From: Nitrospirota bacterium
Lineage (GTDB): Bacteria; Nitrospirota; Thermodesulfovibrionia; UBA6902
DNA: 64,000 nucleotides
Direction: 5' to 3'
Assembly (NCBI GenBank): GCA_016234115.1
Contig: JACRHD010000025.1
Span: forward strand, 62,001 to 126,000
Shown: piece by piece, positions 7,973 to 34,623 of the stretch
How the letters are laid out: every line of letters begins with the position of its first letter
Numbering within the stretch: position 1 is the first letter of the stretch
The notes under the pieces: model-generated
What the model was told of the DNA's origin: nothing
The model's input: only the letters and a program-made list of their open reading frames with translations
Database searches by the model: none
Translations under genes and position numbers: made by a program

Positions 7973-9121
7973 GTGACCAATAAATTAAAATCCCTTGCCG
8001 CGCGCCTCCTCCGGAACTGGAGGGGGCCGAAATCCGACGTAGGTACGGAGAAGCCTGCCGCTTCACAGGTTGTTCAGCCCGCGCAGGACGACGAGGACGT
8101 TAAAAAGATCTCTCTCCAGAAGGCATATCTTCAGCGCGGGGTTTTTCCCGCCCAGTTTTCAGTAGTTCTCGGATCGGCGCCCTGCAATCATTCGTGTTTG
8201 TTCTGCCCGCAGTCGGTAGTGAAACCCGGGAAGGCCCAATGGCTTGATATGAAAGTCCTGGAGAAGTCGCTCAACGAGATGCCGGAGGAGAATATTTCGC
8301 TGAACATGTCGAGTTATTCGGAGACCATGCAGTGCCCTGTCCTTTTTCCCGCTATAGAAATGATGAAGCGCATCCGTCCGAATCTTCCCATCGTAATGGC
8401 GACAAACGGTTCGCAAATGACGGTCCGGAAGGTAGAGAAGCTGATAGAATTGGGGCTCGATAAACTGAGCTTCAGCTTTGACGCCGCCGACAGGGAAAGT
8501 TATAAGCAATTGATGCAAAAGGACGACTTTGAACAGGTGGAGCGTAATCTCGAAATGATATGCCGGGTGCGCAATGAGCATAAGAGCAACATGCAGATAC
8601 TTACTCACATAATGGGGTTTGAAAACCAGAGGGAACTTTACGAGACATTCAAACAGCGGTGGGACGGCATTGTCGATGTAGTCAGCTTTCGCTCAGTCGG
8701 GAATTGGGGTGATGAGGGCCTCGGACTGAAAAAGCGCCTTGAAGAAAGCGGCTTTGTCGCGATTTATAAAAAGCCCGAAAGAAGATTCCCCTGTACGTCG
8801 GTATTCATGCATTTCAAGCTTGCGCCTGACGGTCACTACTACCCCTGCGTTGCTTACGTCCCCCAGGATAATTACGCTGAACTCCAGTTATTGTCTTTGG
8901 GTGATGCGAGGGAGACCACCTTCAATGAAGCATGGGACCGTCTTGAAGTGATGCGTCAAAAGCACGTGGAAGGGAAATGGGATGAATGCCCCTACTGCGC
9001 AAAGTGCGACGTATGGGGGCTGTGGGAAGACATGTGGTTTGAGCGGAACGGTCTTTTTGATTTGGACGAATCAATAAAAAAGCTGAATTATTGGGAAAAG
9101 CAGGGTCCATCCGATAAATGA
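7973..9121 (+). CDS. Radical SAM/SPASM domain protein, copy 2
   Basis: A 382-residue radical SAM protein starting at GTG, with AAGGTGG about 10 bp upstream. C71, C75 and C78 form the CxxxCxxC motif. SPASM-type cysteines lie near C274, C292, C339, C342 and C345. The first 55 residues are basic and low in motifs, a possible adaptor region. The pattern matches radical SAM enzymes scattered in polysaccharide loci, whose chemistry is mostly unknown. It overlaps the next gene by ATGA, so the two products are probably made together. Confidence 0.85.
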   Translation: MTNKLKSLAARLLRNWRGPKSDVGTEKPAASQVVQPAQDDEDVKKISLQKAYLQRGVFPAQFSVVLGSAPCNHSCLFCPQSVVKPGKAQWLDMKVLEKSLNEMPEENISLNMSSYSETMQCPVLFPAIEMMKRIRPNLPIVMATNGSQMTVRKVEKLIELGLDKLSFSFDAADRESYKQLMQKDDFEQVERNLEMICRVRNEHKSNMQILTHIMGFENQRELYETFKQRWDGIVDVVSFRSVGNWGDEGLGLKKRLEESGFVAIYKKPERRFPCTSVFMHFKLAPDGHYYPCVAYVPQDNYAELQLLSLGDARETTFNEAWDRLEVMRQKHVEGKWDECPYCAKCDVWGLWEDMWFERNGLFDLDESIKKLNYWEKQGPSDK

Positions 9122-9874: not shown

Positions 9875-10663
9875 ATGCGGATAGTCGTCTTTGGAGATAC
9901 TCACGGCGTTCCGCAACTGCAAAGACATCTGCCGCAAGGCTTTATGGTCGCGGTAATCGCTGCCGAGATAAGACCTCAGTATTTTGAACCTCTACAAATC
10001 ATTTCTGATTCCAATGAAATTCCACTCATTATACAACCCAGGCATGCATCAACAAATTATCCTGCTTTCGTAGAGGCGTTAACCGACTTGGCCCCTGATT
10101 TCATTATGGTTAACAGCTATTCCATGAAACTGCACCCTGACATTCTTGTCCTGCCTAAACACGGAGCCGTGAACATACATGGTGCGCTTTTGCCTCAGTA
10201 TCGGGGAGCAAATCCCATCCAATGGGCGATCCTTAACGATGATAAAGAAACCGGCGTGACGATGCATTACATGGATGATGATTTTGACACGGGAGATCTT
10301 ATTGCCCAAAAAAAAGTGCCAATCAATGTATCTGACACATGGCTTGACGTTCAAAAACGCATAACACGGGCTACAGAAGAGATGCTGAGAGCAAAAATTC
10401 CAGACTTGCTTAACGGAACAAGTGGACGTTTGCCGCAGAATGAAAACAAGGCACGACATTGGCCCCGAAGAAAACCCGAAGACGGCCTCATAGACTGGCG
10501 CAACGATGTTCATTATATTTACAACTTAATCCGATCGCTGGTGAAACCCCTTCCCGGGGCATTTTACTTTGATGAAGAGGGGCGGAAAATTGTTATTGAT
10601 TACTTTCTTTCGATAGAAGATGTAAGGAGACTTCAGAATAAGCAAAATAGGGCGCGTCATTGA
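9875..10663 (+). CDS. Formyltransferase family protein, copy 2
   Basis: A 262-residue formyltransferase fold with the family's catalytic residues N100 and H102 in VNIHGALLPQYRG and D138 in FDTGDLIAQ. It is more canonical than copy 1 and keeps a short C-terminal region with IDWRND, typical of Fmt-like sugar formyltransferases. The likely reaction is transfer of a formyl group from 10-formyl-THF to an amino sugar nucleotide. It follows the deacetylase-fold gene by 4 bp and overlaps the WbqC-like gene by 4 bp. Confidence 0.83.
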   Translation: MRIVVFGDTHGVPQLQRHLPQGFMVAVIAAEIRPQYFEPLQIISDSNEIPLIIQPRHASTNYPAFVEALTDLAPDFIMVNSYSMKLHPDILVLPKHGAVNIHGALLPQYRGANPIQWAILNDDKETGVTMHYMDDDFDTGDLIAQKKVPINVSDTWLDVQKRITRATEEMLRAKIPDLLNGTSGRLPQNENKARHWPRRKPEDGLIDWRNDVHYIYNLIRSLVKPLPGAFYFDEEGRKIVIDYFLSIEDVRRLQNKQNRARH

Positions 10664-11388: not shown

Positions 11389-12552
11389 ATGATCACAAAA
11401 ACTAATTGCGACATTACTTTTTCATCGGTTAATAAGGACTTTCTGCTTGGGAAATTCAGCGATGTTATCAAAAACATCTTCGGCTTCAACAACGGATGTC
11501 CCAAGGTAAAGGCGCTTCAGGACATCACCTTCAATATTCCGCAAGGCGAGCTGCTTGGCGTGTTAGGCCGAAACGGGGCCGGCAAAAGCACTCTTTTACG
11601 GGTTGCCGGAGGCATTTATAATCCGGACGAAGGGGAAATATATGTGCGGAAAAATCCGACTGCCATATTTGAGATGGGGCTTTTCGGGAACCAGCACCTT
11701 ACCGGACGGGAATTTTGTAAGATATATTTTTCTTTCAGGAATATCCCGCGCAGCGAACAAAAAGCATTAACAGAAGACGTCCGGGAATTCTCGGAGCTTG
11801 AGGAATACTTTGAAGAGCCGATGCGGAATTATTCGAGCGGAATGCTGGCCAGGCTGCTTTTCGGCGTCATCACGGCGATACCGGCTGAAATTGTCCTTCT
11901 CGATGAGATCCTTTCCGTAGGCGACCAGCATTTTCAGGGGAAATCATATAAACGTCTGATAAAGATGATCTCTAAGGGGGCGTCAGGCATCTTTGCCACT
12001 CATGACTGGTTCAGCGCCGTGCGCCTTTGCAGCAAAATCATTGTCCTCAATAAGGGTAAAGTGGAATTCGAGGGCACGTCTCAGCAGGCTGCCAGGAAAT
12101 ATCTCAATATAGGATCAACGATAACCAAACGTGTCGTATTCCGGGACATAGAAAGATTGCGGGAATCGGCGTTTACATATACAAACGGCGAACCCTTCTC
12201 AATGACGTTTGATGTGGAAAGCGCCTTTGAAGGGCCCTTTTGCGCAGGTCTTGCAATTGAAATACCTAAACACGCGGTGGTGGTCATAATAGACAATAGT
12301 CATGTTGTGACGGGAGGGACAGGGACATTCCGCATATCCTTCAAATTCCCTTTGTTCCCCATCGTCTTTAATGATTGTTACCTTTCGCTCTTCCTGTCTA
12401 AACCTCGTGTCTCAGGTCAAACCGCTTCACCGGAAGTATATGATCAGATTTCCTGGACATCAGGCGACAGTATCAGACTGGTAAACAAAGCGCCTCAGCA
12501 CGCGTCTGAGGCGATCATAGGACGTAAATTAGGCTGGAAAAGAATACGATAG
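11389..12552 (+). CDS. Polysaccharide ABC exporter ATPase 1 (Wzt-like)
   Basis: A 387-residue ATPase. Walker A is GRNGAGKST (60-68), the signature is YSSGM (148-152), Walker B is IVLLDE with E173 as the catalytic base, and the switch His is H205 in ATHDW. After about residue 240 comes a beta-rich Wzt_C-like domain that in related systems recognises the glycan terminus. The D-loop reads SVGD. It is followed 4 bp later by a second, different ATPase and then one permease, so the two may form a heterodimeric motor. Confidence 0.85.
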   Translation: MITKTNCDITFSSVNKDFLLGKFSDVIKNIFGFNNGCPKVKALQDITFNIPQGELLGVLGRNGAGKSTLLRVAGGIYNPDEGEIYVRKNPTAIFEMGLFGNQHLTGREFCKIYFSFRNIPRSEQKALTEDVREFSELEEYFEEPMRNYSSGMLARLLFGVITAIPAEIVLLDEILSVGDQHFQGKSYKRLIKMISKGASGIFATHDWFSAVRLCSKIIVLNKGKVEFEGTSQQAARKYLNIGSTITKRVVFRDIERLRESAFTYTNGEPFSMTFDVESAFEGPFCAGLAIEIPKHAVVVIIDNSHVVTGGTGTFRISFKFPLFPIVFNDCYLSLFLSKPRVSGQTASPEVYDQISWTSGDSIRLVNKAPQHASEAIIGRKLGWKRIR

Positions 12553-12556
12553 GCTT

Positions 12557-13720
12557 ATGAATATCTCTTTGAAAAATGTATATAAGAAATTCCCCGTCAC
12601 AGGCGGCTGGAAAATTGCGGTTGACAATGTTTCACTCGATATAGACCTGGGCGAGCGTTTAGGCATTATCGGACGCAACGGGGCCGGAAAGACAACGCTC
12701 CTTCAGATAATTGCAGGGCTTGCGGAGGCAACGTCCGGGGAGGTAAACGTCGACGGGCACGTCAACTGCATTATGACCTTGGGGGTCGGCTTGAGGGAAG
12801 AGCTTTCAGGCAGAGACAACATCTATATAGACGGAGAGATTAACGGTAAGGCGCGCAAAGAGGTCGACCGGGTCATTGACGACATTATTGCCTTTGCCGA
12901 CATAGGCGAATTCATAGATTATCCGGTGCGCACTTATTCGACCGGCATGAAGGCAAGGCTCGCGTTCTCCATGATCATATTCATCGAGCCGGGCGTCCTT
13001 ATCATCGACGAGGCGCTTTCAGCCGGCGACGCTGAATTCGGGGCAAAGGCCGCGCAGAAAATGAAAGAGATTTGCGGCAAAGGCAAGATACTGATTCTTG
13101 TGAGCCATTCGATGAAGGCGATTACGGACATGTGCGGACGGTGCATCTGGATGGACCAGGGACGCGTTGTTATGGATGGGGACTCCGAGTCTGTCACAAA
13201 GGCATATCAGCAGGCCGTACGTGAAGCCGATGAGAGAGAGATGCAGGAGTTGTTCCATAAAAGAATCGGCCCAAAGTCTTTTGACCCGAGATACTCTATC
13301 GACAGGATTGAATTTCTTGATAAGAATAATATCGCCCGGCGCATCTGGCAATCCGACGAGGAAATGACAATACGTCTGTTCATTAAGGCAATGGAAAAAC
13401 TGGAATGCCCTGATTTGAAAATTTCCATTGAACGGACCGACGGCAACGTTCTGATGGAAAACTACGCAAGCAGGGACGGCTTCCGGCTTCCCGCCATTGA
13501 AGACGAGGCTGTTTTTGAAATTGACTTCGGCGCAATATCGTTCGGGCAGAACACGTATGAGGTACACGTTGAATTGCTGGACATGGGCCGGGGACCCCAA
13601 GCGGTATTGACGGCCTGCGATGACGTAATAAAGGTCGAAAAGCCCCTGAATATTATTGACTCTCCGTCATATTTCTGTCCGATAGAATGGTCCTCGGAAC
13701 GCATGAGAGGCACGGATTAG
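12557..13720 (+). CDS. Polysaccharide ABC exporter ATPase 2 (Wzt-like)
   Basis: Also 387 residues but clearly divergent from its upstream neighbour. Walker A is GRNGAGKTT (39-47), the signature YSTGM (127-131), Walker B VLIIDE with E152, and the switch His H184 in VSHSM. A C-terminal Wzt_C-like beta domain spans roughly residues 230-387. All nucleotide-site residues look intact in both ATPases. Its stop codon directly abuts the GTG start of the permease, so this one is the more conventional Wzt partner by position. Confidence 0.87.
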   Translation: MNISLKNVYKKFPVTGGWKIAVDNVSLDIDLGERLGIIGRNGAGKTTLLQIIAGLAEATSGEVNVDGHVNCIMTLGVGLREELSGRDNIYIDGEINGKARKEVDRVIDDIIAFADIGEFIDYPVRTYSTGMKARLAFSMIIFIEPGVLIIDEALSAGDAEFGAKAAQKMKEICGKGKILILVSHSMKAITDMCGRCIWMDQGRVVMDGDSESVTKAYQQAVREADEREMQELFHKRIGPKSFDPRYSIDRIEFLDKNNIARRIWQSDEEMTIRLFIKAMEKLECPDLKISIERTDGNVLMENYASRDGFRLPAIEDEAVFEIDFGAISFGQNTYEVHVELLDMGRGPQAVLTACDDVIKVEKPLNIIDSPSYFCPIEWSSERMRGTD

Positions 13721-14512
13721 GTGGACTTGCTCGGATTCAGAAAAGACGATATTCGTCTGATCATCAATCTCTTCAAGATGAATATACGCGACCGCTATCT
13801 CGGCTCCGCCCTGGGATTGTTCTGGGCTGTTTTGCATCCGCTGCTGCTTCTTGGAATTTATACCTTTGTTTTCGGGTTTGTCCTTAAATCCAAACTCCCT
13901 GGCGCTGAGACCACCTTTGCCTATTCTATATGGATGATAAGCGGCTTTGTTCCGTACATGGCTTTTTCAGATGCGATCAACGTTTCGACCAGTTCTGTTA
14001 TAGGTGGAAGCGGTCTTGTAAAAAATATTGTCTTTAAATCTGAGACACTGCCGATAGCCGCAACCCTTACAGCGGGAGTGCCGTTCACCGTCGGCATGAT
14101 ATTCCTCATGTTTCTTCTTTTTGCCGACGGCAACTATCCGACGTGGCATATCGTCGCGCTCGTTCCGGTAATTATCCTTCAGTTCGCGTTCTTAACAGGA
14201 GCAGCGTTCTTCCTCAGCGCCACCACTGTTTTTATCCGAGATATTGCGCAGGCTCTTCCGACATTAATTATGTTTCTACTGTTCTTCACCCCGATATTTT
14301 ACCCGGTTGAAAGCATGCCTCAATTAATTGAAAAACTGACTTTCTTTAATCCGTTATACCAAATGACCCGTCCGTACCGCGATATTCTGTTTCAGCATCA
14401 ACTGCCTGACTGGCGGGGGATGGCATACCTTGGATTTCTCGCGACGGTCCTGATCCTGTCGGGGCTGAAATATTTTCGCCGCCTCAAGGGATATTTCGAG
14501 ATGAAATTATGA
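13721..14512 (+). CDS. ABC-2 polysaccharide export permease (Wzm-like)
   Basis: A 263-residue integral membrane protein of the ABC-2 type with about six hydrophobic segments and the N-terminal FKMNIRDRYLGSALGLFWAV region typical of Wzm/TagG permeases. It would move the finished lipid-linked glycan across the inner membrane, driven by the two ATPases encoded just upstream. The start is GTG immediately after the upstream TAG. The 3' end overlaps a glycosyltransferase by ATGA. One permease for two ATPases is unusual. Confidence 0.88.
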   Translation: MDLLGFRKDDIRLIINLFKMNIRDRYLGSALGLFWAVLHPLLLLGIYTFVFGFVLKSKLPGAETTFAYSIWMISGFVPYMAFSDAINVSTSSVIGGSGLVKNIVFKSETLPIAATLTAGVPFTVGMIFLMFLLFADGNYPTWHIVALVPVIILQFAFLTGAAFFLSATTVFIRDIAQALPTLIMFLLFFTPIFYPVESMPQLIEKLTFFNPLYQMTRPYRDILFQHQLPDWRGMAYLGFLATVLILSGLKYFRRLKGYFEMKL

Positions 14513-15615: not shown

Positions 15616-16155
15616 ATGCGGATAGATACCGTTATTGATGCCGTCGTAAAAATATTCAGGGCCGTTCTTTCGTTTATTGTCCGCGCTAATATATATTTGT
15701 GCAGGAAGATATCGGTCAGATTCAAATTAAACAACCGGATAACTATGTTTGAGGAACTGCTCCAGGACACACAGGGCAGGCTCCGCGACGCGCAGGACAC
15801 GCTCCAGGACACGCGGGGCAGGCTCCAGTTTATAAGTGAACAGTATCAAAATGAAGTTAAGCGCCTAACAGATTATATTCTTGTTTCCCTTTTTGATTTT
15901 AGCGATGCTGATAAGTATGACCCGAAAGCTTGTAAGGCCGAATTTTTTTGGGACAAGCAACGCCTTTACGAAATTAAATATGTTTTTTGTGAGGTAGAAT
16001 ATGTGATTTTCCTGCCTCGACAACCGAGGTCAGGCAAATATTTCGGTTGTGAACGCGTTCCTGAAAATGCTAAATTGGTAATAGTCCGTTTTGTCGACCG
16101 TGAGCTTGACAGGATGTGGGTCCAGCGCGATGGTAAAATCAGTTCTTTCGGGTAA
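15616..16155 (+). CDS. Hypothetical protein with hydrophobic N-terminus and short coiled coil
   Basis: A 179-residue protein with no recognised family. Residues 8-30 form a hydrophobic segment (VVKIFRAVLSFIVRANIYL). A heptad-like region follows around residues 48-75 (LLQDTQGRLRDAQDTLQD), encoded by a 42-bp direct repeat (15759-15784 and 15801-15826 share a 26-bp core). The C-terminal half has mixed beta-type sequence. It may be a membrane-tethered scaffold for the glycosyltransferases around it, but that is conjecture. It starts 6 bp after the upstream stop and is followed by a 130-bp gap. Confidence 0.6.
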   Translation: MRIDTVIDAVVKIFRAVLSFIVRANIYLCRKISVRFKLNNRITMFEELLQDTQGRLRDAQDTLQDTRGRLQFISEQYQNEVKRLTDYILVSLFDFSDADKYDPKACKAEFFWDKQRLYEIKYVFCEVEYVIFLPRQPRSGKYFGCERVPENAKLVIVRFVDRELDRMWVQRDGKISSFG

Positions 16156-16288: not shown

Positions 16289-17719
16289 ATGTCAAACAAT
16301 ATAAAGAAAATACTCATGTTGGCGGCTCACGAACCCAATTTGGACCCTCGTATCAACTGGGAGGCGGAGTCTGCGTCGGAAAAATACGATGTCACGGTCA
16401 TGGGTCTTCAAAATTTAAGCGAATTGAAGCCTCAGGAAGAGACCATAAACAACTACAAGGTGTTCCGGTTCAATCGTAATGAGCTGGACAAGAAATCCAA
16501 CTTCTGCCTGATGATCATGCAGCACCTTATTCCGAGACGGCTGCAGATTGCCGGCTCTGTCGCGACGGCGCTCCTTTTGCCGTTTTATTTCATTTTAGAA
16601 ATTATATTTAATTTGATACGCGTTTTGTTATTTACGTCGGCGCGCCTTTTATTTGCCGATTTAAGGAGCTTTAAACTGATCAAATATTCGGTAAAATATA
16701 TCCTGAGCAAAACAGGAATATTAAATTCCATCAGGCGATATTACGATTTTATCTGGATAACCAAACACTTCTTTGCCACTTCAATGGTTTTCTGGCGTGA
16801 GCTGTGCAGGATGAGGTCCAAACCGCATATTATTCACTGCAACGATCTGGATACATTGCTGGTAGGCGTATTGGCCAAAAAGGTCTATAACTGCGGACTG
16901 GTTTACGATGCTCATGAGTTTTGGCCCTACTCGGATGTTAATGCCCCCTGGTACCAGGTTGCTATCTCCAAATTCTATGAAAAATGGCTGATACGCCACG
17001 TCGACTATGCAATAACAGTAAATCCGATGCTTGCCCGGTTGATCGGAGAGACATACGGGCTGCCGAAGGTATATTCTCTTCCCAATTGTGAGCCCTGGCG
17101 TAAACCTTCCTCCGCTGTCGTCAGAGGCAAAATGAGCGAGCTTGCCGACGGCAGAGTCAAATTTCTTTATCAGGGGAATTTTGCCCCCAAAAGAGGCCTT
17201 GAAGAAATTATACAGGCATGGAAGCATGTTGACGGCTCGAAGGCCGTCCTTTTTTTGCGCGGCCCCGACAATATCTATAAAGAGGAGTGTTTTAAAGTCG
17301 CAAACGCGACCGGCCGGTTGGGAGAAAGCATTTTTTTTCTTGAGGCCGTCGCCGAGAAGGATTTGATCGATGCCGCTATGGAGGCGGACGTCGGAATTAT
17401 CCCGTACAAGCCGGTGTGCATAAATTACACTTACTGCTGCCCCAATAAACTGTCTCAATACATGCACGCAGGATTAATAATAATGGCAAACAGGCTACCG
17501 TATGTAGAGGAAGTTCTCAATAAATATTCTTGCGGGGTCCTGTATGATTCGGACGATATCAATTCTATTGTTGACGCAATTGCTGATATCATTAATAAGC
17601 CGGGATATCGGGCCGGGAAAAAGGAAAATTCCTTAAAATTTGCCGGCGAGGAATTCAACTGGCAGGTGCAGAGTTCAATTTTATTTGAGATTTACGGCAA
17701 ATTGACCTCGTGTTCGTAA
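16289..17719 (+). CDS. Glycosyltransferase family 4 protein
   Basis: A 476-residue GT-B protein. The N-terminus reads ILMLAAHEPNLDPRINWEA, matching the DPR-type GT4 group also seen at 25476-26603. LVYDAHEFWPYS is the family acceptor-side motif, and FLYQGNFAPKRGLEE marks the C-terminal nucleotide domain. Two hydrophobic segments around residues 88-125 probably associate it with the inner membrane. AAGGG lies just before the ATG. The 130 bp upstream hold no gene and may hold a promoter. Confidence 0.82.
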   Translation: MSNNIKKILMLAAHEPNLDPRINWEAESASEKYDVTVMGLQNLSELKPQEETINNYKVFRFNRNELDKKSNFCLMIMQHLIPRRLQIAGSVATALLLPFYFILEIIFNLIRVLLFTSARLLFADLRSFKLIKYSVKYILSKTGILNSIRRYYDFIWITKHFFATSMVFWRELCRMRSKPHIIHCNDLDTLLVGVLAKKVYNCGLVYDAHEFWPYSDVNAPWYQVAISKFYEKWLIRHVDYAITVNPMLARLIGETYGLPKVYSLPNCEPWRKPSSAVVRGKMSELADGRVKFLYQGNFAPKRGLEEIIQAWKHVDGSKAVLFLRGPDNIYKEECFKVANATGRLGESIFFLEAVAEKDLIDAAMEADVGIIPYKPVCINYTYCCPNKLSQYMHAGLIIMANRLPYVEEVLNKYSCGVLYDSDDINSIVDAIADIINKPGYRAGKKENSLKFAGEEFNWQVQSSILFEIYGKLTSCS

Positions 17720-17737: not shown

Positions 17738-18934
17738 ATGAGATTAGCGACCTTTAAAAGCACGGGTAAGTTAATTATACTTCTACTGATCGCCGTCTTT
17801 GCGGCCTGTAAAGACGCCCCTACCGTTTCTTTACAAACAGGACAAAAACAGCCGTTTGAAATTACATTTGATAAATATTCACCTGAAGAGAAAAAAGTCA
17901 TAACAACGCATGTTGACAAGGCATTATCTTTAATACCTCCGCGGTCCGGCGAATTGGAAACCGCGGCAGCCATAAATGATTACGTATTTCAATACTTCGT
18001 CAACAAAGACAATCTCGGCAACGCCGTTAAATTGTTAAATGAAGGCCATGCGATTTGCGGAGGGGCCGCTGTTACCATGGCCGAGATGCTTTACTCGGTC
18101 GATATCAAAAGCAGACTTGCGTTCCTTATAGGGATTCCGACCCAGGGGGCGCATTCTTTGGTCGAAGTGTATTTCAGAGATGGGACGCGAGGATTGTTTG
18201 ATCCCTCATTTGGGATCTTTTGGTACGATTATGAAAATAAAAAGCCTGTCTCAATAGTAGATCTCCTGGCAGAGCCCGAACTGAGCGATATTTTTTTATA
18301 CAAGACCATTAATGCAAAGAGAAAGAAAACGGACGAAGCGGTAAAACCATACATCGGGCTTTCTCAAACATATCAAAACAGGAAAAAATATAAAGAAGAA
18401 TACTACGATCCCTATCAATGCTTTTCGAAACGCAGCGGGGGGGGGGTTTCAGGGGAGGAATATACAACATACGTAAAGATTCCCTTGGGACCGGGCAGTT
18501 CATACGGGGATAAGAAAGGAAGCAGCGAAACAACCCCCTGGAACAAATTGGCCGTACTCCAGAACAAAGAGGGAGAATATATTTCATGGGCATACATGCT
18601 TGGAAAAACAGGCGATTACAATATAACTCACGTTTACCGGTTTGCCGGCCTGCAACCCGGTGATTCATATAATCTGTCGCTCTATTACGCAAAGGCCTAT
18701 AATGCCGTGTTGTCGGTTCAAATATTGAACGGACACAGGCCCAACCAGGGGAACAGCTCTACTTTTTATTATGAAGTAGAGAACTTAACGTATAAAAAAA
18801 GCGGCTCTGCGATTGAAAAGGTCCATATCCCGTTTACTGCCGATTCGCCGAATGTCGAAATAATAACATCTACTGAGGGATATCTGATTTTGACCGCTAT
18901 CGAGTCGGCCCCGATGAAGACTTACAAAAATTGA
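17738..18934 (+). CDS. Transglutaminase-fold lipoprotein, paralogue 1
   Basis: A 398-residue lipoprotein: hydrophobic signal peptide with lipobox FAAC (Cys24). A transglutaminase-like (papain-fold) core carries a putative triad C107 (ICGGAA), H139 (GAHSLVEV) and D155 (LFDPSFG). The C-terminal 160 residues look beta-rich, like a carbohydrate-binding module. It may act in the periplasm or on the outer membrane as a protease or transamidase acting on glycan-linked amino groups or amides. A run of ten G (18437-18446) lies in the coding sequence near codon 234. A tandem paralogue follows. Confidence 0.72.
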   Translation: MRLATFKSTGKLIILLLIAVFAACKDAPTVSLQTGQKQPFEITFDKYSPEEKKVITTHVDKALSLIPPRSGELETAAAINDYVFQYFVNKDNLGNAVKLLNEGHAICGGAAVTMAEMLYSVDIKSRLAFLIGIPTQGAHSLVEVYFRDGTRGLFDPSFGIFWYDYENKKPVSIVDLLAEPELSDIFLYKTINAKRKKTDEAVKPYIGLSQTYQNRKKYKEEYYDPYQCFSKRSGGGVSGEEYTTYVKIPLGPGSSYGDKKGSSETTPWNKLAVLQNKEGEYISWAYMLGKTGDYNITHVYRFAGLQPGDSYNLSLYYAKAYNAVLSVQILNGHRPNQGNSSTFYYEVENLTYKKSGSAIEKVHIPFTADSPNVEIITSTEGYLILTAIESAPMKTYKN

Positions 18935-19010
18935 GCGGCGGTAAATTCCATTGCAAACAACAGGCTGCGCCGGCCGGCAATCATCGAAGAATAGAAAAGA
19001 GGTCTGATTA

Positions 19011-20198
19011 ATGGGTGTCAGAATTGCGCGCAGCGTCCTTATGCTCCTTTTTGTTATTGTCGCTTCAGGCTGCAAAGACGCCGGAACATTCTTTTCAAAG
19101 TGCGAAAAAAAAGAGTCCTTTGAAAGACAATATGATGATCTTACTTCGAAGGAGAAAAAGGTTGTAAACTCGCATGTCGATAGGGCGTTGTCTTTACTGC
19201 CTCCGAAGCCCGGCGAACTGGAAATTGCGGCAGCCATAAATGATTACGTATATCAGTATTATATTCGCAAAGACAACAACGGCACCACGGCAAAAATGCT
19301 GACCGAAGGCCACGCGAGCTGCGGAGGGGCCGCTGTTACCATGGCCGAAATGCTCTACTCGGTCAATATCAAAAGCAGACTCGCATATCTTGTCGGCATA
19401 CCGAACCAGGGGTCCCATTCATTGGTCGAGGTCTATTTCACAAATGGGACAAGCGGGCTGTTTGATCCTACATATGGAATATTGTGGTATGACAAAGAAA
19501 ACAACAGACCCGTTTCAATATTGAAACTCCTGTCGGACCCTCAATTAAGCAACCTTTTTTTATATAAGAGCATCAATAAAAAAAGGCAGGAATTAAAGGA
19601 TGCCGTCAACCCGTCGCAAGGGTTTTTGCAGACATATCAAAACAAAAGGTCCTATAAAGAACAATATTATGATCCCTATTTATGTTTCCGGCAGCGCTCG
19701 GGCGGCGGGGTCGCCGGCGATGATTATAAAACGTTTGTAAAGATTCCCATGGAGCCGGGCGTTTTATACGGCGACAAGGACGGAAGCAGTAACGTCGTTA
19801 CCCCGTGGAACAAGCTGGCTTTACTCCAGAATAAAGAAGGCAAATATATTTCCTGGGCGTACATGCTCGGCGAAGTCGCGGATTACAGCGTGTCCCATAT
19901 TTATCAGTTCAGCAAGTTGATTACCGGCAATTCATATAACCTGTCATTATATTATGCGGAGGCAAATGCCTCCATATTATCGATTCAAATACTGAACGGG
20001 CACAGACGCGGACAGGAGAACGACTCGACTTTTTATCATCAGATAGAGAAGCTGGATTATAAAAAGGACATCCGTGAAATCAGAAAAATCGACATTCCGT
20101 TTACTGCCGAATCTCAGGACGTCCGGATTATCATAGCCACTGAAGGAAATATAATGTTGACGGCCATCGAGTCGAATCTCTTAGCGGGCGGGCCGTAA
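19011..20198 (+). CDS. Transglutaminase-fold lipoprotein, paralogue 2
   Basis: A 395-residue tandem paralogue of the preceding gene, similar along its whole length. Lipobox VASGC gives Cys21; the triad is C104, H136 and D152. The C-terminal beta-rich region is conserved, with the shared segment NKEGKYISWAYMLG. The glycine stretch that is a G10 run in paralogue 1 is here coded with mixed GGC/GGG codons, so no homopolymer exists. The gene starts 76 bp downstream with AGAGG before the ATG. The pair probably arose by duplication within the locus. Confidence 0.72.
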   Translation: MGVRIARSVLMLLFVIVASGCKDAGTFFSKCEKKESFERQYDDLTSKEKKVVNSHVDRALSLLPPKPGELEIAAAINDYVYQYYIRKDNNGTTAKMLTEGHASCGGAAVTMAEMLYSVNIKSRLAYLVGIPNQGSHSLVEVYFTNGTSGLFDPTYGILWYDKENNRPVSILKLLSDPQLSNLFLYKSINKKRQELKDAVNPSQGFLQTYQNKRSYKEQYYDPYLCFRQRSGGGVAGDDYKTFVKIPMEPGVLYGDKDGSSNVVTPWNKLALLQNKEGKYISWAYMLGEVADYSVSHIYQFSKLITGNSYNLSLYYAEANASILSIQILNGHRRGQENDSTFYHQIEKLDYKKDIREIRKIDIPFTAESQDVRIIIATEGNIMLTAIESNLLAGGP

Positions 20199-20235: not shown

Positions 20236-21456
20236 ATGGATTTGCTCACAAAAAAAATTCAGATGTTGCTGAAAAACGGATTGAAGGCCGGGGTCCGGCA
20301 TATGTTTCCGGGAAGAGGCCCGGGCCCGGTCACGTTCCATATGTCGCCCAAAAAATCAAGGCTGAAAATATTGTTTTTGGCGTGGTATGATCCTCAGGGC
20401 CTTGGCACAATCCTGGAAAATGTAAAAGAAGTATGCCGTCTGTCCAGATTTCATTTTGAAGTCCTGAACCTGTATGACGAGGCAATGGAAATCCCTTCCG
20501 GCCTGAATTATTACAAGTATGATGCGTTGATGATACACTGCACACTGTCCTACAATATCGACAACCTGAGAGCGCTCGACGGAAACCATCCCCGGAAGAT
20601 AAAAGACTTCCCCGGCCTGAAAGTCATGATGAAGCAGGATGAACATTACAGGACCGACGGCATCGTTCAATATCTTCAGGATAATGCATTCGATTTGCTG
20701 TTCACATGCGTCCCCTCATCCGAGATAGAGAAAGTATATCCGAAGGAAAAATTTCCAAGGCTGAAATTTCATCAGATGCTTACCGGATACGTGACTGATG
20801 AGATGCGGAAATTCACCTTTTCCCAGGATGAGGACCGTCCTTTAGATATAGGCTATCGGGGCTCTTTGCAACCATGGTCTTTCGGAAGACTTAGCTATGA
20901 AAAACAGCAGATCGGGGACGTCTTTCTAAAGATTTGCCGCGAACGGAATCTGACGTGCGATATTTCAAGCCGGTGGGAGGACCGCTTTTTCGGCAATGAA
21001 TGGTTCCGGTTTCTCGGCGGATGCAAGGCCACTCTCGGGGTCGAATCCGGGGCGAGCATTTTTGATTTTACCGGACAGGTGGAACGGGAATCCGCAGAGT
21101 ACCTTAAACAAAACCCAAAGGCGGACTTTGAGGAGGTCTTCCGGAAAATATTGGAGCCGTATGAAGGAAATGTATATTACAATCAAATTTCCCCGCGTCA
21201 CTTCGAAGCGGCCGCCTGCCGCACGGTCCAAATCCTGTACGAAGGACAATATTCGGACATCTTTCAGCCCTTCCGGCATTATCTGCCCCTGAAAAGGGAC
21301 CTGTCAAATCTTGATGATATATTGGCGCGCCTTCAAAACGCTGAAGAGCGTAAGAGTATCGCGCAAACGGCCTTTCAGGAAATCATAATGAATGATAAAT
21401 ATAAATATTCAACTTTCGTCACCCGGCTTGATGAAGAAATCGATGCGTTGATTTAA
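20236..21456 (+). CDS. CgeB-like glycosyltransferase
   Basis: A 406-residue protein with the layout of CgeB/GT1-like glycosyltransferases: an N-terminal Rossmann-like half (LKILFLAWYDPQGLG) and a C-terminal half ending in YYNQISPRHFEAAACRTVQ, where the E in HFEAAAC is the donor-site acid. It carries no signal peptide. A likely role is sugar addition to the exported glycan. It lies 38 bp after the second lipoprotein gene and 63 bp before a second asparagine-synthase-like gene. Confidence 0.72.
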   Translation: MDLLTKKIQMLLKNGLKAGVRHMFPGRGPGPVTFHMSPKKSRLKILFLAWYDPQGLGTILENVKEVCRLSRFHFEVLNLYDEAMEIPSGLNYYKYDALMIHCTLSYNIDNLRALDGNHPRKIKDFPGLKVMMKQDEHYRTDGIVQYLQDNAFDLLFTCVPSSEIEKVYPKEKFPRLKFHQMLTGYVTDEMRKFTFSQDEDRPLDIGYRGSLQPWSFGRLSYEKQQIGDVFLKICRERNLTCDISSRWEDRFFGNEWFRFLGGCKATLGVESGASIFDFTGQVERESAEYLKQNPKADFEEVFRKILEPYEGNVYYNQISPRHFEAAACRTVQILYEGQYSDIFQPFRHYLPLKRDLSNLDDILARLQNAEERKSIAQTAFQEIIMNDKYKYSTFVTRLDEEIDALI

Positions 21457-21519: not shown

Positions 21520-23445
21520 ATGTGCGGCATAGCGGGAATTCTTAGTTTCAAATCGGAACGTTACAACAACCTGGAGGCCCATCTCCGGGTGATGAACAGG
21601 ATTCAGGCCCATCGCGGCCCTGACGGAGAGGGCCTATGGACCCACAAGGGCGGACGTCTCGGTTTCGCCCATCGTCGCCTCAGCATCATTGACCTGACGA
21701 CCGGGGCGCAGCCGATGAGCGCGGCTTCAGGCGATACGATCTGCTACAACGGGGAAATATACAACTATATGGAACTGAGGCAGGAATTGGGGAATGAGTT
21801 CGACTTCAGGACTACGTCCGATACCGAGGTAATCCTTGCGGCTTACCGGAAATGGGGTACGGATTGCGTCAATCATCTCAGAGGCATGTTCGCCTTTGCC
21901 GTTTGGGACGAGTCCGAGGGGGTTCTTTTCTGCGCAAGAGACCGGTTCGGGATTAAACCTTTTTACTACACAGTCATAAATGACGTATTTTATTTTGCCT
22001 CCGAGCCGAAGACGCTGCTGCCTTTTTTACCGGCAATTGAAACCGATATAGCTGCCTTGAAGGATTATCTTGTATTTCAGTTTTGTCTGGACGGCAAGAC
22101 GCTTTTTCAGGGTATCAATGAGCTGCAGCCGGCGCACAGGCTCATAATAAGAGGCGGGAATATGCGGGTCGAGCGATACTGGGAAGTCTATTACAATCTC
22201 GACTTTTATCATACGCCCAGATATTTTGAGGACAAATTAAGGGCATTGATCGAAGATTCGGTAAAATATCACATCGTCAGCGACGTCCCTGTCGGGGCCT
22301 ACGTCAGCGGAGGCACGGACTCAAGCATAGTCGCCTCAGTCGCTTCCCGATTGAAGCCTGATGAAGAATTTATGGCCTTCACCGGCAAGTTTTTATACGG
22401 GGAGCTGTATGATGAGAGCGCGTATGCCCGCGCCCTCACTGAAATGAGAGGCATGACGCTCCATGAAACGGCCATAACCAGCAGGGACTTTGCCGACAGC
22501 ATAAGAAAGGTCATCCATCATCTGGACTATCCCGTTGCCGGCCCGGGGTCGTTCCCGCAATATCACGTTTCAAAGCTTGCCGCGCAACATCGCAAGGTGG
22601 TCCTTGGAGGGCAGGGCGGGGACGAGACATTCGGGGGCTATACGAGGTATCTTGTCGCGTACTTCGAGCAGTGCATAAAAGCCGCGGTCAACGGGACCAC
22701 GCACAGCGGCAGATTTGTTGTCACCTATGAATCAATAATCCCCAATCTTGTGGCCCTGAAGAACTATAAGCCCATGCTTCAGGAATTCTGGAAGGAAGGC
22801 CTGTTTGAAGATATGGACAAGCGATATTATCGCCTGATAAACCGCGCCCCTACGCTTCACAATGAGATCAACCTGCATGAGCTCGGCGAGTATTCTCCCT
22901 TTGAAACCTTCAAGGGGATATTCAATGGGCACAATGTCAATAAGGAATCCTATTTCGACAGGATGACCCATTTTGACTTTAAGACGCTCCTGCCCGCCCT
23001 TTTGCAGGTTGAAGACCGTATGAGTATGGCGCACGGGCTTGAATCCCGCGTGCCTTTTCTGGACCATCCCCTTGTTGAATTTGCCGCCACCATGCCGGCA
23101 GACGTCAAATTCAAGGATGGCACCCTGAAGATGGCATTGACCAATGCGATGAGGCAGGAACTGCCTGACATCATCGCAAACCGAAAAAACAAGATGGGTT
23201 TCCCGGTGCCGTTAAACGAGTGGATAAAAGGCGAGCTGAAAGAATTTGTCTTTGACGTCTTTAACGCGCAGCCGGCAAGGAACAGGGCATATTTCAATCA
23301 TAAAGAGATACTCAACAATCTTACATCCGAATCGAATTTCGGCAGGAAAATATGGGGCCTGCTTTCCCTTGAATTGTGGCATCAGGAATTCCACGATAAA
23401 GCGCACAAGTATAAACAATATCTAAACAAGGAGGTCTTGGTTTAA
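21520..23445 (+). CDS. asnB: Asparagine synthase family amidotransferase, copy 2
   Basis: A 641-residue two-domain amidotransferase. MCGIAG places the glutaminase Cys at position 2, and CYNGEIYNY supplies the glutamine pocket. The PP-loop reads SGGTDSS near residue 262, with Thr where the other two copies have Ile. The C-terminal domain carries QGGDETFGGYTRY. It is distinct from copies 1 and 3, so it probably amidates another carboxylate. Its TAA overlaps the ATG of the next gene by one base. Confidence 0.85.
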   Translation: MCGIAGILSFKSERYNNLEAHLRVMNRIQAHRGPDGEGLWTHKGGRLGFAHRRLSIIDLTTGAQPMSAASGDTICYNGEIYNYMELRQELGNEFDFRTTSDTEVILAAYRKWGTDCVNHLRGMFAFAVWDESEGVLFCARDRFGIKPFYYTVINDVFYFASEPKTLLPFLPAIETDIAALKDYLVFQFCLDGKTLFQGINELQPAHRLIIRGGNMRVERYWEVYYNLDFYHTPRYFEDKLRALIEDSVKYHIVSDVPVGAYVSGGTDSSIVASVASRLKPDEEFMAFTGKFLYGELYDESAYARALTEMRGMTLHETAITSRDFADSIRKVIHHLDYPVAGPGSFPQYHVSKLAAQHRKVVLGGQGGDETFGGYTRYLVAYFEQCIKAAVNGTTHSGRFVVTYESIIPNLVALKNYKPMLQEFWKEGLFEDMDKRYYRLINRAPTLHNEINLHELGEYSPFETFKGIFNGHNVNKESYFDRMTHFDFKTLLPALLQVEDRMSMAHGLESRVPFLDHPLVEFAATMPADVKFKDGTLKMALTNAMRQELPDIIANRKNKMGFPVPLNEWIKGELKEFVFDVFNAQPARNRAYFNHKEILNNLTSESNFGRKIWGLLSLELWHQEFHDKAHKYKQYLNKEVLV

Positions 23446-24401
23446 TGAAAGTTCTAATAACAGGCGGGGCCGGGTTTATCGGCTCAACCCTGACTGACAA
23501 ACTCTTAGAAAGGGGTGACAATGTACTTGTCATTGATAATTATGCGACAGGCAGGCGGGACAATTTGACCCCGCACAAAAACCTCACGGTCATCGAAGGC
23601 ACAATAGCGGACAGGGACCTGGTGGAGAAAACCTTTAACGATTTTTCCCCTGACAAGGTTGTCCATGCCGCCGCATCATATAAAGACCCTGAAAACTGGT
23701 TTGACGATACGCTGACGAATGTTCTCGGCACTGTAAATATAGTAAAGGCGTCGAAGAAAAATAATATCAAAAGACTTATTTATTTCCAGACGTCCCTGTG
23801 TTACGGCCTGCACCCGCTTGAGCAGCCTATCACACTGAAACACCCGCTGTTTTCCGCAGGATATTCAGGCGGCAGCAGTTATGCCATAAGCAAGACCGGC
23901 GGCGAGCAGTATATTGAATTAGGCGGTTTCGATTTCATATCGTTCAGACTTGCCAATGCTTACGGGCCGAGAAACCTGAGCGGCCCGCTTCCGACATTCT
24001 ACCATCGGCTTACAAATAACAAACCGTGTTTTGTAATGGACACGCGCAGGGATTTTATTTATATAGACGACCTTGTGGAAGTGGTAATAAAAGCGTTGGA
24101 CGGCAGAGGCGAGAAAGGGTATTATCATATTTCTTCGGGTTCCGATTATTCAATCAAGGAATTATTTGATGCAACAATAAAGGCCCTCGACATTAAGCTC
24201 GACAAACCCGTGGAAGAGAGACAGCGGAGCGCGGATGACGTATTCACCATTCTGCTTGATCCGTCAAAGATAAATAAGGACTTTGACTGGAGGGTCTCCA
24301 CCCCCCTTGAGGAGGGTATCAGAAGGACCATTGAGTGGTATAAAAAATACGGAATTACCCAGACGTATACCCACTTAAAACCTGTCGAGGGGAAAAAATG
24401 A
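23445..24401 (+). CDS. NAD-dependent epimerase/dehydratase (extended SDR), copy 1
   Basis: A 318-residue extended SDR enzyme. GGAGFIGS near residue 7 binds NAD(P). The catalytic Tyr-Lys pair is in SYAISKTGGEQ (YxxxK), and the upstream TSLCYG supplies the Ser/Thr. It acts on a nucleotide sugar as a 4-epimerase, dehydratase or reductase; sequence alone does not choose. Neighbouring SDR copy 2 overlaps it by ATGA, suggesting consecutive steps. Products would feed the glycosyltransferases here. Confidence 0.85.
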   Translation: MKVLITGGAGFIGSTLTDKLLERGDNVLVIDNYATGRRDNLTPHKNLTVIEGTIADRDLVEKTFNDFSPDKVVHAAASYKDPENWFDDTLTNVLGTVNIVKASKKNNIKRLIYFQTSLCYGLHPLEQPITLKHPLFSAGYSGGSSYAISKTGGEQYIELGGFDFISFRLANAYGPRNLSGPLPTFYHRLTNNKPCFVMDTRRDFIYIDDLVEVVIKALDGRGEKGYYHISSGSDYSIKELFDATIKALDIKLDKPVEERQRSADDVFTILLDPSKINKDFDWRVSTPLEEGIRRTIEWYKKYGITQTYTHLKPVEGKK

Positions 24402-25465
24402 GTCTTGACCAAAGGCATTCATTTGACGGATCACGGGTCCTTGTTGTCGGCGGCGCAGGCTTTGTCGGGAGCAATCTCGTAAAGATGGTTCTCGCATCAT
24501 CTCCTCAGGTCCGGATCACTGTTGTGGACAATCTCTTGTCCTCCGAGCGTGTGAATGTGCCTGAAGACCGGAGGGTCGATTTCATCGAAGGCTCCATTAC
24601 CGGCGACGGCATTTTAGGCCGCTTAGACGACGGTTACGATTATATCTTCCACCTGGCCACCTATCACGGCAATCAAAGCTCCATCCATGACCCGCTTGCA
24701 GACCATGAAAACAATACGCTGACAACGCTGAAGCTGATGAACCACGTCAGGGATTTTAGAAATATCAAAAAGCTTGTCTACTCGTCCGCCGGGTGTTCCG
24801 CTGCGGAAAAGACCTTTGATGATGCTAAGCCTACAACTGAAGAAGCGCCGATCTCCCTGATTCAGGACAGTCCATATTCCATATCGAAAATCATCGGGGA
24901 GTTCTATTCAGTGTATTTCCACAGGCAGTACAAGCTCCCTACGGTTCGCGCAAGGTTTCAGAACGTATATGGCCCTGGAGAGATATTGGGAGCAGGTAAA
25001 TGGAGGGGAACTCCTGCAACGATATGGCGCAACGTCACTCCGACGTTCATATATAAGGCATTAAAAGGCACGCCGCTTCCCGTGGAAAACAACGGTATGG
25101 CCACGAGGGATTTTATTTATGTGGATGACATATGCAGAGGCTTGATCGCTTGTGCCCTCAACGGAAACCCCGGCGATGTTTACAACATCGCAAGCGGCAA
25201 AGAGACTTCAATCATGGAGCTTGCGACCGTGATTAATGAAATTGTCGGCAACAGGGCCGGGATTGAATATCTTCCCAAACGCGCGTGGGACAATTCCGGC
25301 AAAAGATTCGGCAGCACGGAAAAGGCAAAAAGAGAACTTGGATTCGAAGCTTCCACGTCAGCAAGAGATGGTTTGTCGAAAACAACTGAATGGACAAGAC
25401 AAAATATGCCTTTGATTGAACGTTGCATTTCTAAGCATAAAGAGCATCTTCCGCCTGTCGCTTAA
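24398..25465 (+). CDS. NAD-dependent epimerase/dehydratase (extended SDR), copy 2
   Basis: A 355-residue extended SDR enzyme with VGGAGFVGSNL near residue 17, a YSSAGCSA serine segment, and SPYSISKIIGEFY containing the YxxxK pair. It is similar in architecture to UDP-glucose/GalNAc 4-epimerases and GDP-sugar epimerases. A conserved RDFIYVDD segment is typical of this class. It overlaps SDR copy 1 by four bases. The sugar product is undetermined. Confidence 0.85.
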   Translation: MSLDQRHSFDGSRVLVVGGAGFVGSNLVKMVLASSPQVRITVVDNLLSSERVNVPEDRRVDFIEGSITGDGILGRLDDGYDYIFHLATYHGNQSSIHDPLADHENNTLTTLKLMNHVRDFRNIKKLVYSSAGCSAAEKTFDDAKPTTEEAPISLIQDSPYSISKIIGEFYSVYFHRQYKLPTVRARFQNVYGPGEILGAGKWRGTPATIWRNVTPTFIYKALKGTPLPVENNGMATRDFIYVDDICRGLIACALNGNPGDVYNIASGKETSIMELATVINEIVGNRAGIEYLPKRAWDNSGKRFGSTEKAKRELGFEASTSARDGLSKTTEWTRQNMPLIERCISKHKEHLPPVA

Positions 25466-26606: not shown

Positions 26607-28592
26607 ATGTGCGGCATAGCCGGAATATTTTCTCCAGATAATTTCCCCGGCAATCCCCATATTCGCAGGATGGCCGACACGCTAAGGCATCGCGGTCCCG
26701 ATGACGAAGGCTATCTCGCGGCGGATTTGAAGGCAGGGTCAGTCCATCATCTCACCGGAGATGACAGCAAGGTGGAAGACGCTCATATCGACAGCTTCAG
26801 AAGACCCGCCAATCTTTTCCTTTCCCACAGAAGACTCTCAATCATCGACCCCTCCCCCGCAGGCCATCAGCCTATGTGTAACAGTGATAAAACCTTATGG
26901 ATTGTCTACAACGGTGAGATTTATAACTACCTTGAGTTGAAAGCGGAATTGAAAACGGCCGGCTATGACTTCAAGACCCATTCCGACACCGAGGTCCTTC
27001 TTGCCGCCTATGAAATGTGGGGCAAAGACTGCCTCAACAGATTCAACGGCATGTGGTCTTTTGTTATTTATGACAGGAGAAAAAACATCCTCTTCGGGGC
27101 AAGGGACAGGTTCGGCGTCAAGCCCTTTTATTACTATAAGGACAGGGATTACTTTGTTTTTGCTTCCGAGATAAAGGCCCTGGTTTCACTCCCTTTTATA
27201 GAGAAGAAGATCAACGGAAACGCCGTATTCGATTACCTCGTCCTCGGTCTGCAGGAAAATGAGGAGGAGGGTTTTTTCAGGGGCGTCTTTGAGCTGCCGC
27301 CGGCCTTTGCGTTTGAGCTCGATCTGTCAAAAAATGATTTCAGGAAATGGCGATATTACACCCTTGATTACGTCGATGCGTGGAGATCTTTTGATGAAGC
27401 CGGCTTCAATGAATATTCCGCCGGCTGCAGGGACCTAATCTTCAACGCGGTCAGGCTCCGGCTCCGTTCCGACGTCCCTGTCGGCTCGTGTCTCAGCGGC
27501 GGGATAGACAGCTCAAGCATTGTGTGCGTCATCAACAGCCTCCTTGAAAGAGAAAAATTCGAGCAGGTCGGGGAGAGACAGAAGGTATTTACCGCAAGCT
27601 ATGACGACAAGGCCATCGATGAGAGCGATTGGGCAAAGACAGTGGTGGACAAAACCAGGACCGCCTGGTTTCAGGTGTTCCCGAAGTCCTCTGAGCTGAT
27701 GGATGACCTTGAAGACCTGGCCTATTCGCAGGACATACCTTTCGGGACGACGAGCATCTACGCGCAATACAGGGTCATGAAACTCGCGCGTGAAAACGGC
27801 GTGACCGTCCTGCTGGACGGTCAGGGCGGCGACGAGTTGTTCACGGGATACACGGGATACTACGCGGCCTTCTTTTTCGAAATGCTGAGGAACCTCGACG
27901 TCGCGTCTTTTTTAAGGGAGAAAGAGGGGCTGAAGAATTCTCCGGTCACCATGAAATTCATTCTCGCGTCTTTATTGAAACGCTCTGCAAAATCCGTCAT
28001 GCCTCCGGTAATCAGGGAAAAGCTGAAGTCAGCATATCACGGAATGAAAAACGGCAGCAAATATCTCAATGATGATTTCCGGCAGGCGAACAAAGACAGG
28101 CCGGCTTCATCCGGCGACAGACCGGCGTCGCTCAACGCCGAGCTCCATGAATTGATGTGCAGGACCAATCTCAAGAACCTCCTGCGGTACGAAGACAGGA
28201 ATTCGATGCGCTTTTCCATTGAATCAAGGACGCCCTTTGCCGACGACATTAATCTGATCGAGTACCTTTTCAGGGTCCCCTCCGTTTACAAGATACACAA
28301 CGGCTGGAGCAAGTATATCCTGCGCGAATCCATGAAGGGCATAATACCCGACAGGACCAGATTGAGAAAAGACAAACTCGGCTTCTCCACGCCGGAGCAC
28401 CGCTGGCTGAACGATAATAAGGACGAGCTCTCAGGTTATATCGGTGCGGACCTGGACGGATTTATAGACACAAAACAGCTTTGCCGGGACTGGGACGTAA
28501 TCCTGCAAAACCACACCGGCTTCGACGCGACCAATATCTGGAAGATTATAAATCTCGGCGTCTGGAAGAAGGCATTCGGGCTGCAGCGATGA
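26607..28592 (+). CDS. asnB: Asparagine synthase family amidotransferase, copy 3
   Basis: A 661-residue amidotransferase, the longest of the three. Cys2 is the nucleophile (MCGIAGIFS) and the PP-loop is SGGIDSSS near residue 295. Compared with the others it has an insertion of about 30 residues around residues 45-75 in the glutaminase domain (a GSVHHLTGDDSKVED region). LDGQGGDELFTGY marks the second half of the synthase site. It ends in an ATGA overlap with a glycosyltransferase. Confidence 0.85.
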   Translation: MCGIAGIFSPDNFPGNPHIRRMADTLRHRGPDDEGYLAADLKAGSVHHLTGDDSKVEDAHIDSFRRPANLFLSHRRLSIIDPSPAGHQPMCNSDKTLWIVYNGEIYNYLELKAELKTAGYDFKTHSDTEVLLAAYEMWGKDCLNRFNGMWSFVIYDRRKNILFGARDRFGVKPFYYYKDRDYFVFASEIKALVSLPFIEKKINGNAVFDYLVLGLQENEEEGFFRGVFELPPAFAFELDLSKNDFRKWRYYTLDYVDAWRSFDEAGFNEYSAGCRDLIFNAVRLRLRSDVPVGSCLSGGIDSSSIVCVINSLLEREKFEQVGERQKVFTASYDDKAIDESDWAKTVVDKTRTAWFQVFPKSSELMDDLEDLAYSQDIPFGTTSIYAQYRVMKLARENGVTVLLDGQGGDELFTGYTGYYAAFFFEMLRNLDVASFLREKEGLKNSPVTMKFILASLLKRSAKSVMPPVIREKLKSAYHGMKNGSKYLNDDFRQANKDRPASSGDRPASLNAELHELMCRTNLKNLLRYEDRNSMRFSIESRTPFADDINLIEYLFRVPSVYKIHNGWSKYILRESMKGIIPDRTRLRKDKLGFSTPEHRWLNDNKDELSGYIGADLDGFIDTKQLCRDWDVILQNHTGFDATNIWKIINLGVWKKAFGLQR

Positions 28593-34438: not shown

Positions 34439-34623
34439 GATAATCCTCCTTTGCTCCCCGTGCGGAGAGCTCTTTGATTTGTTTTTTATCATTAGATACC
34501 CATCTCTCTTTCAACTTTCTCAGGGTAAGAGAAACGGACATCCATGATTTCTTAATTTAAATTGTATCGCAAAAAAACGGGTTGTCAACCAGGCACGTGG
34601 AGAGTCCGGAGGTTAAGGCAGGG

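Follow-up and report, generated by a model that had tools for sequence, protein, structure and literature searches.

A tandem pair of probable lipoproteins with a rare transglutaminase-like core in a Nitrospirota polysaccharide locus suggests surface-glycan amide editing far from Bordetella

Introduction

A transglutaminase-domain protein that acts on a surface polysaccharide has been described in Bordetella bronchiseptica. According to the summary in PMC3507681 (citing King et al. 2009), WbmE is a periplasmic protein of the O-antigen locus that deamidates uronamide-rich O chains after they have been assembled. The Bordetella locus, to the extent that PMC3849452 sets it out, combines genes for the conversion of UDP-ManNAc3NAcA to UDP-GalNAc3NAcA with an ABC exporter, in the context of wbmF-H and wbmL-N. 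For uronamide sugars, the enzyme proposed to make them is WbpS, a protein of the AsnB type (PMC6025236).

Other members of the superfamily have different tasks and settings. A capsule export locus of Caulobacter crescentus encodes HvyA, a transglutaminase-like protein that blocks capsulation and depends on its Cys, His and Asp for this; LapG, a distant relative of HvyA, cleaves an adhesin (PMC4241560). The periplasmic PF01841 domain of TgpA has transglutaminase activity in vitro (PMC3507681), and a transglutaminase-like cluster of Burkholderia cenocepacia has been listed among nitrogen-metabolism genes (PMC5491218).

Here we describe two adjacent genes, TG1 and TG2, from a Nitrospirota genome. 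The initial annotation proposed that their products could cross-link an exported glycan to proteins or to itself, a kind of surface attachment system of which it knew no example. A precedent for the setting exists in WbmE, which PMC3507681 presents as an enzyme with a transglutaminase domain encoded in a comparable O-antigen locus.

Results

Gene content of the polysaccharide locus

The window is the whole 64,000-nucleotide stretch that was analysed (positions 62,001 to 126,000 of contig JACRHD010000025.1, assembly GCA_016234115.1). Coordinates below are those of the window; the genes listed with coordinates in this paragraph and the next, like all features of TG1 and TG2, are on the plus strand. 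Upstream of the window, the locus opens with a gene that fuses a sugar 3-dehydrogenase to a hexapeptide acyltransferase, along with genes for a DegT aminotransferase and a WecB-type 2-epimerase. There follow a radical-SAM protein, an AsnB-type glutamine amidotransferase (2108-3988; TIGR01536, 452 bits), a methyltransferase, a FemAB/GNAT-type acyltransferase (4879-5973), two formyltransferases (5889-6728 and 9875-10663), a WbqC protein and a polysaccharide ABC exporter. The exporter comprises two Wzt-like ATPases (11389-12552 and 12557-13720, the latter with a Wzt_C glycan-binding domain matched by PF14524 at 32.2 bits) and a Wzm-like ABC-2 permease (13721-14512; PF01061).

Beyond the exporter are glycosyltransferase genes, including a GT4-type gene directly upstream of TG1 (16289-17719; profile match), and then the TG pair. 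Directly downstream of TG2 is a glycosyltransferase-like gene (20236-21456; PF13524), followed by a second AsnB-type amidotransferase two genes from TG2 (21520-23445; TIGR01536, 515 bits), two tandem SDR genes of the sugar-nucleotide epimerase/dehydratase kind (23445-25465), another glycosyltransferase and a third AsnB-type gene (26607-28592; TIGR01536, 454 bits). The locus ends at about 32.9 kb with further glycosyltransferases and an RgpF-type protein. Nucleotide-sugar 6-dehydrogenases, a source of uronic acids, are encoded elsewhere in the same genome.

By its gene content the locus is of the ABC-transporter-dependent O-antigen or capsule type. Judged from the gene families, amino sugars, uronates, amides and N-acyl groups are likely to be abundant in the glycan. 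TG1 and TG2 lie centrally in the locus and share the orientation of the glycosyltransferases that flank them. The initial annotation had placed the pair among such genes, and the neighbours on both sides do match glycosyltransferase families. It had also expected neighbouring enzymes to create amides and amines, which agrees with the three AsnB-type amidotransferases, the aminotransferases and the formyltransferases.

Several other features of this stretch are worth recording. The exporter (11389-14512) has two Wzt-type ATPases of 387 amino acids each ahead of a single permease, and only the second clearly matches Wzt_C. Two radical SAM/SPASM proteins (84-974 and 7973-9121) are encoded inside the locus. 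A 179-amino-acid protein encoded between two glycosyltransferase genes (15616-16155) contains a heptad-like stretch (LLQDTQGRLRDAQDTLQDTRGRL) and gives only weak Pfam matches, of coiled-coil type; its DNA carries a short imperfect repeat. Directly beyond the locus, on the opposite strand, is a gene for an apparent lipoprotein (33032-34492, minus strand). Its lipobox is followed by a run of glycines (LSCGGGGGGG), and it has five DUF5666 repeats.

Core domain, lipid anchor and duplication

TG1 (17738-18934) and TG2 (19011-20198) were confirmed as tandem open reading frames on the plus strand, for apparent lipoproteins of 398 and 395 amino acids with a transglutaminase-like core. In a Pfam profile search, both exceed the gathering score of PF01841 (Transglut_core, 23 bits), TG1 with 31.4 bits (E = 2.4e-7) and TG2 with 28.4 bits (E = 2.2e-6). 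Cys, His and Asp occur in the order and spacing of that family. The alignment predicts the catalytic residues of TG1 as Cys107 (EGHAIC-GG; 18056-18058), His139 (18152-18154) and Asp155 (18200-18202), and those of TG2 as Cys104 (19320-19322), His136 (19416-19418) and Asp152 (19464-19466). This is the triad at matching positions that was apparent to the initial annotation; it is invariant in all nine proteins that we compared, from two phyla, and when the core profile is aligned with 3isr, a solved transglutaminase-like protein (E = 3e-4), the three triad columns fall in register.

Each protein begins with a hydrophobic stretch followed by a lipobox (FAAC24 in TG1, ASGC21 in TG2), as had been read from the sequence at the outset, with the cysteine codons at 17807-17809 and 19071-19073. 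The ends of these segments, LLIAVFAAC24KD and FVIVASGC21KD, are lipobox-like under the PROSITE PS51257 rule when read from the sequence, and lipid anchoring is likely from this motif. In both proteins a lysine directly follows the lipobox cysteine. Under the sorting rule of E. coli, a lysine at this position would not retain a protein in the inner membrane. TG1 and TG2 are probably envelope lipoproteins, either facing the periplasm or in the outer membrane.

The two proteins share 62% identity across 395 amino acids and are true tandem paralogues. Synonymous differences between them are near saturation (dS = 1.29), yet dN/dS is only 0.20 overall and reaches its lowest value, 0.15, in the core, which shows that both are maintained as proteins. 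As judged from these rates, this is an old duplication with both copies retained as working proteins under purifying selection. No other Transglut_core genes were found in the same genome (3.5 Mb, 97% complete). Because TG1 and TG2 are its sole Transglut_core matches, their triad aligns with that of 3isr and is invariant, and purifying selection has acted on both, the observation is not a matter of chance.

C-terminal domain and predicted structures

The remainder of each protein, from about residue 202 in TG1 (18341-18931) and at 19611-20195 in TG2, is a beta-rich domain of no known family. A search against Pfam, CBM families included, found no family at E up to 10, and a sequence search gave no convincing solved relative. 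AlphaFold models of TG2 and of a Gemmatimonadota homologue (see below) have low whole-model confidence (pLDDT 54 and 56), and fold matches that rest on them are used here as leads. The C-terminal third of the TG2 model is all beta, in keeping with the initial annotation, and includes blocks of locally moderate confidence after residue 300 (pLDDT about 61-84).

With Foldseek, the core of the TG2 model matches transglutaminase-like enzymes and LapG at E of about 1e-3, the match to the LapG structure 4u65 being weak. The predicted C-terminal sandwich of this low-confidence model has lectin- and CBM-like folds as its best structural matches, namely the EclA lectin domain (4.8e-4), a porphyran CBM, CBM4 and CBM61. 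Matches to pore-forming, binary and insecticidal toxins were set aside, as they reflect a widespread beta-sandwich binding fold in a low-confidence model. For the Gemmatimonadota model, the C-terminal domain instead resembles collagen-binding/PPC and CBM35 folds. Since the two models gave different best matches, we claim no specific CBM family for this domain. On the model, it may hold a glycan chain. The idea that the domain is a spreading module was also considered and dropped, as the domain was not found in 200 relatives or in phages.

Relatives and distribution

We found no close homologues of TG1 or TG2 in plasmids, viral contigs, about 150 relatives or 396 genomes of the phylum. The flanking glycosyltransferases are absent from sixty relatives except for one match at 29%, a pattern to be expected where a surface-glycan locus is variable. 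This distribution suggests that the TG region is a variable block that was probably transferred. Core-profile matches across the phylum were rejected as relatives, being ordinary Transglut_core proteins of other architecture. Such genes, of other families and in other settings, are common (85 of 101 related genomes). Around forty-three of these ordinary loci, no relative of the glycosyltransferases, AsnB or Wzt was detected within about 1.5 kb, in a comparison of limited sensitivity that gave only weak SDR matches.

A scan of 84,980 species produced one relative, in a Gemmatimonadota MAG, with 37% identity in the core. Six more Gemmatimonadota genomes carry homologues, making seven of 64 in all. 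Homology between the window pair and the Gemmatimonadota set covers about 118 columns of the core (hhalign probability 98.8, E = 8e-17), whereas the C-terminal halves do not align (hhalign probability 0.1). The Gemmatimonadota set does not detectably share the C-terminal domain, so any glycan binding by that domain is not conserved across the group. From these searches, the core of TG1 and TG2 is a rare subfamily otherwise found only in some Gemmatimonadota.

In six of the seven Gemmatimonadota homologues, a gene for a lyase-like protein of about 830-865 amino acids directly follows the TG-like gene in the same direction. Its profile matches are to oligo-alginate lyase (2e-7), a DUF4962 protein and a PL35 chondroitinase. 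Because this neighbour is related to alginate and chondroitin lyases, the core subfamily appears to be linked to polysaccharides, and the two genes could work together as a unit on a glycan that is acidic or N-acylated. No glycosyltransferase neighbours are present beside the Gemmatimonadota homologues. The initial annotation would have counted against its proposal a structure without a papain-like core, or homologues that act elsewhere as ordinary peptidases with no glycan link. The outcome is mixed: the core is papain/transglutaminase-like; the same glycosyltransferase context was not recovered outside the window, where the only homologues are these Gemmatimonadota proteins with, in six of seven cases, a lyase-like neighbour.

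Discussion

A WbmE-like activity

Given the precedent of WbmE, and since the window locus contains all the kinds of parts that such a system would use, we propose that TG1 and TG2 are WbmE-like, lipid-anchored glycan amidohydrolases, most likely acting on uronamides. We consider this reading about equally likely to be right or wrong. The expected context is present: a lipobox joined to a PF01841 domain, a Wzt/Wzm exporter, three AsnB-type genes, a diamino-sugar module and 6-dehydrogenases, with the uronates assigned from gene families. The upstream 3-dehydrogenase/acyltransferase, DegT and WecB genes, together with the 6-dehydrogenases elsewhere, resemble the ManNAc3NAcA route of the Bordetella O antigen (PMC3849452), and the 3-dehydrogenase module would also fit non-uronic diamino sugars. 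Uronamides are likewise predicted from gene families, and AsnB-type proteins can have other substrates. The invariant triad, the relation of the core to transglutaminase-like structures, the selection on both copies, the lectin- and CBM-like C-terminal model and the lyase-like neighbours in Gemmatimonadota also speak for this reading. Against it count the low confidence of the models behind the structural matches and the lack of a detectably shared C-terminal domain in the Gemmatimonadota set.

Under the proposed scheme, sugar nucleotides, including the predicted diamino-uronic acids, would be made in the cytoplasm, and some of their carboxyls would be converted to primary amides by the AsnB-type enzymes. 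Glycosyltransferases would then build the chain and Wzm/Wzt would export it. Outside, the chain would possibly be held by the C-terminal domain while the Cys-His-Asp site attacked glycan amides, forming a thioester to be released by water, so that uronamides would be turned back into charged uronates; alternatively, the site could trim another N-acyl amide. The lipid anchor would keep TG1 and TG2 in the envelope, where their substrate, once exported, would be the polysaccharide made by the locus itself. The duplication could provide for two positions, or for two sugars with different modifications.

Alternative explanations

Of the named activities, we rank deamidation first and peptidase action second, with transamidation least likely. 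A thiol peptidase similar to HvyA or LapG would cut either a surface protein or a component of the machinery for export or attachment, thereby controlling the amount of polysaccharide on display. The role of HvyA in a capsule locus, the adhesin cleavage by LapG and the weak match of the TG2 model to 4u65 would all fit, and we regard this possibility as unlikely. However, TG1 and TG2 match only PF01841, with no match to the BTLCP/LapG family PF06035 at E up to 1, no obvious gene for a protein substrate was recognised in the locus, and the capsule export proteins tested were unaltered by HvyA itself (PMC4241560). It is less probable still that the pair has nothing to do with the glycan and serves the envelope in another way, for instance by trimming peptides or the stems of peptidoglycan, its place in the locus being an accident of transfer. 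The many Transglut_core genes of other families and settings (85/101 related genomes) and the absence of the flanking glycosyltransferases from close relatives, which makes the block variable and probably transferred, are compatible with such an accident. Against it, both copies are central and co-directional with the flanking glycosyltransferases, and the forty-three ordinary Transglut_core loci, in that comparison of limited sensitivity, had none of the three kinds of relative (glycosyltransferase, AsnB, Wzt) within 1.5 kb.

Transamidation, in which the enzyme would form a thioester from glycan carboxamides and pass it on to amines of proteins or of other chains, leaving the glycan cross-linked or anchored, appears improbable. 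The core does belong to the transglutaminase superfamily, neighbouring enzymes would supply both amides and amines, and the lipid anchor could put the pair at the surface. But sequence does not separate transferases from hydrolases in this superfamily. A lipid normally anchors O-type chains that ABC transporters export, so a covalent link to protein is not required. Although the PF01841 domain of TgpA is an active transglutaminase in vitro (PMC3507681), the closest functional precedent, WbmE, is reported there to hydrolyse. Nothing that we found favours the cross-linking originally suggested over hydrolysis. The specific form of that suggestion, a lipid-anchored transamidase that uses AsnB-made glycan carboxamides as acyl donors and joins the glycan to itself or to envelope proteins, seems to us very improbable. 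We give least credence of all to TG1 and TG2 being inactive glycan-binding scaffolds: the modelled beta-sandwich domain with its CBM-like matches would suit that role, but the triad is invariant in nine of nine proteins and dN/dS is lowest (0.15) in the core.

If the deamidase reading is true, post-assembly editing of glycan charge by transglutaminase-fold enzymes extends beyond Bordetella to a distant phylum, whose enzyme is duplicated and anchored differently. The puzzling pairing of amide-adding enzymes with apparent amide removers would then have a use as well. For finding enzymes that act on glycan amides, the rare core subfamily offers a compact set of candidates.

Comparison with known systems

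The duplicated, probably lipid-anchored pair and its setting suggest surface-glycan amide editing far from Bordetella, and the comparison with WbmE is one of gene context and described activity, not of sequence; we do not file the pair as WbmE. By the description of WbmE in PMC3507681 and PMC3849452, each system places an exported, triad-bearing transglutaminase domain in an ABC-transporter locus of the O-antigen type, together with genes for diamino-uronates, which in the window locus are predicted. The TG pair differs from WbmE as described there in its two tandem copies, its lipid anchor (by motif) and a C-terminal domain that matches no Pfam family. HvyA is likewise a periplasmic protein of a capsule export locus whose function needs the triad, but it has 272 amino acids, lacks a lipidation signal and belongs to the BTLCP family (PMC4241560), which the pair does not match. 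TgpA and 3isr share with the pair a PF01841 match above the cut-off, and the triad columns align with 3isr; the pair has no DUF3488/TgpA_N membrane region, differs in architecture and carries an extra beta domain. The secreted Gemmatimonadota proteins have the same succession of signal peptide, core and beta C-terminal domain as TG1 and TG2. Unlike the pair, they are without a lipobox, their C-terminal domain is not detectably related, and six of seven adjoin a lyase-like gene in place of a glycosyltransferase locus.
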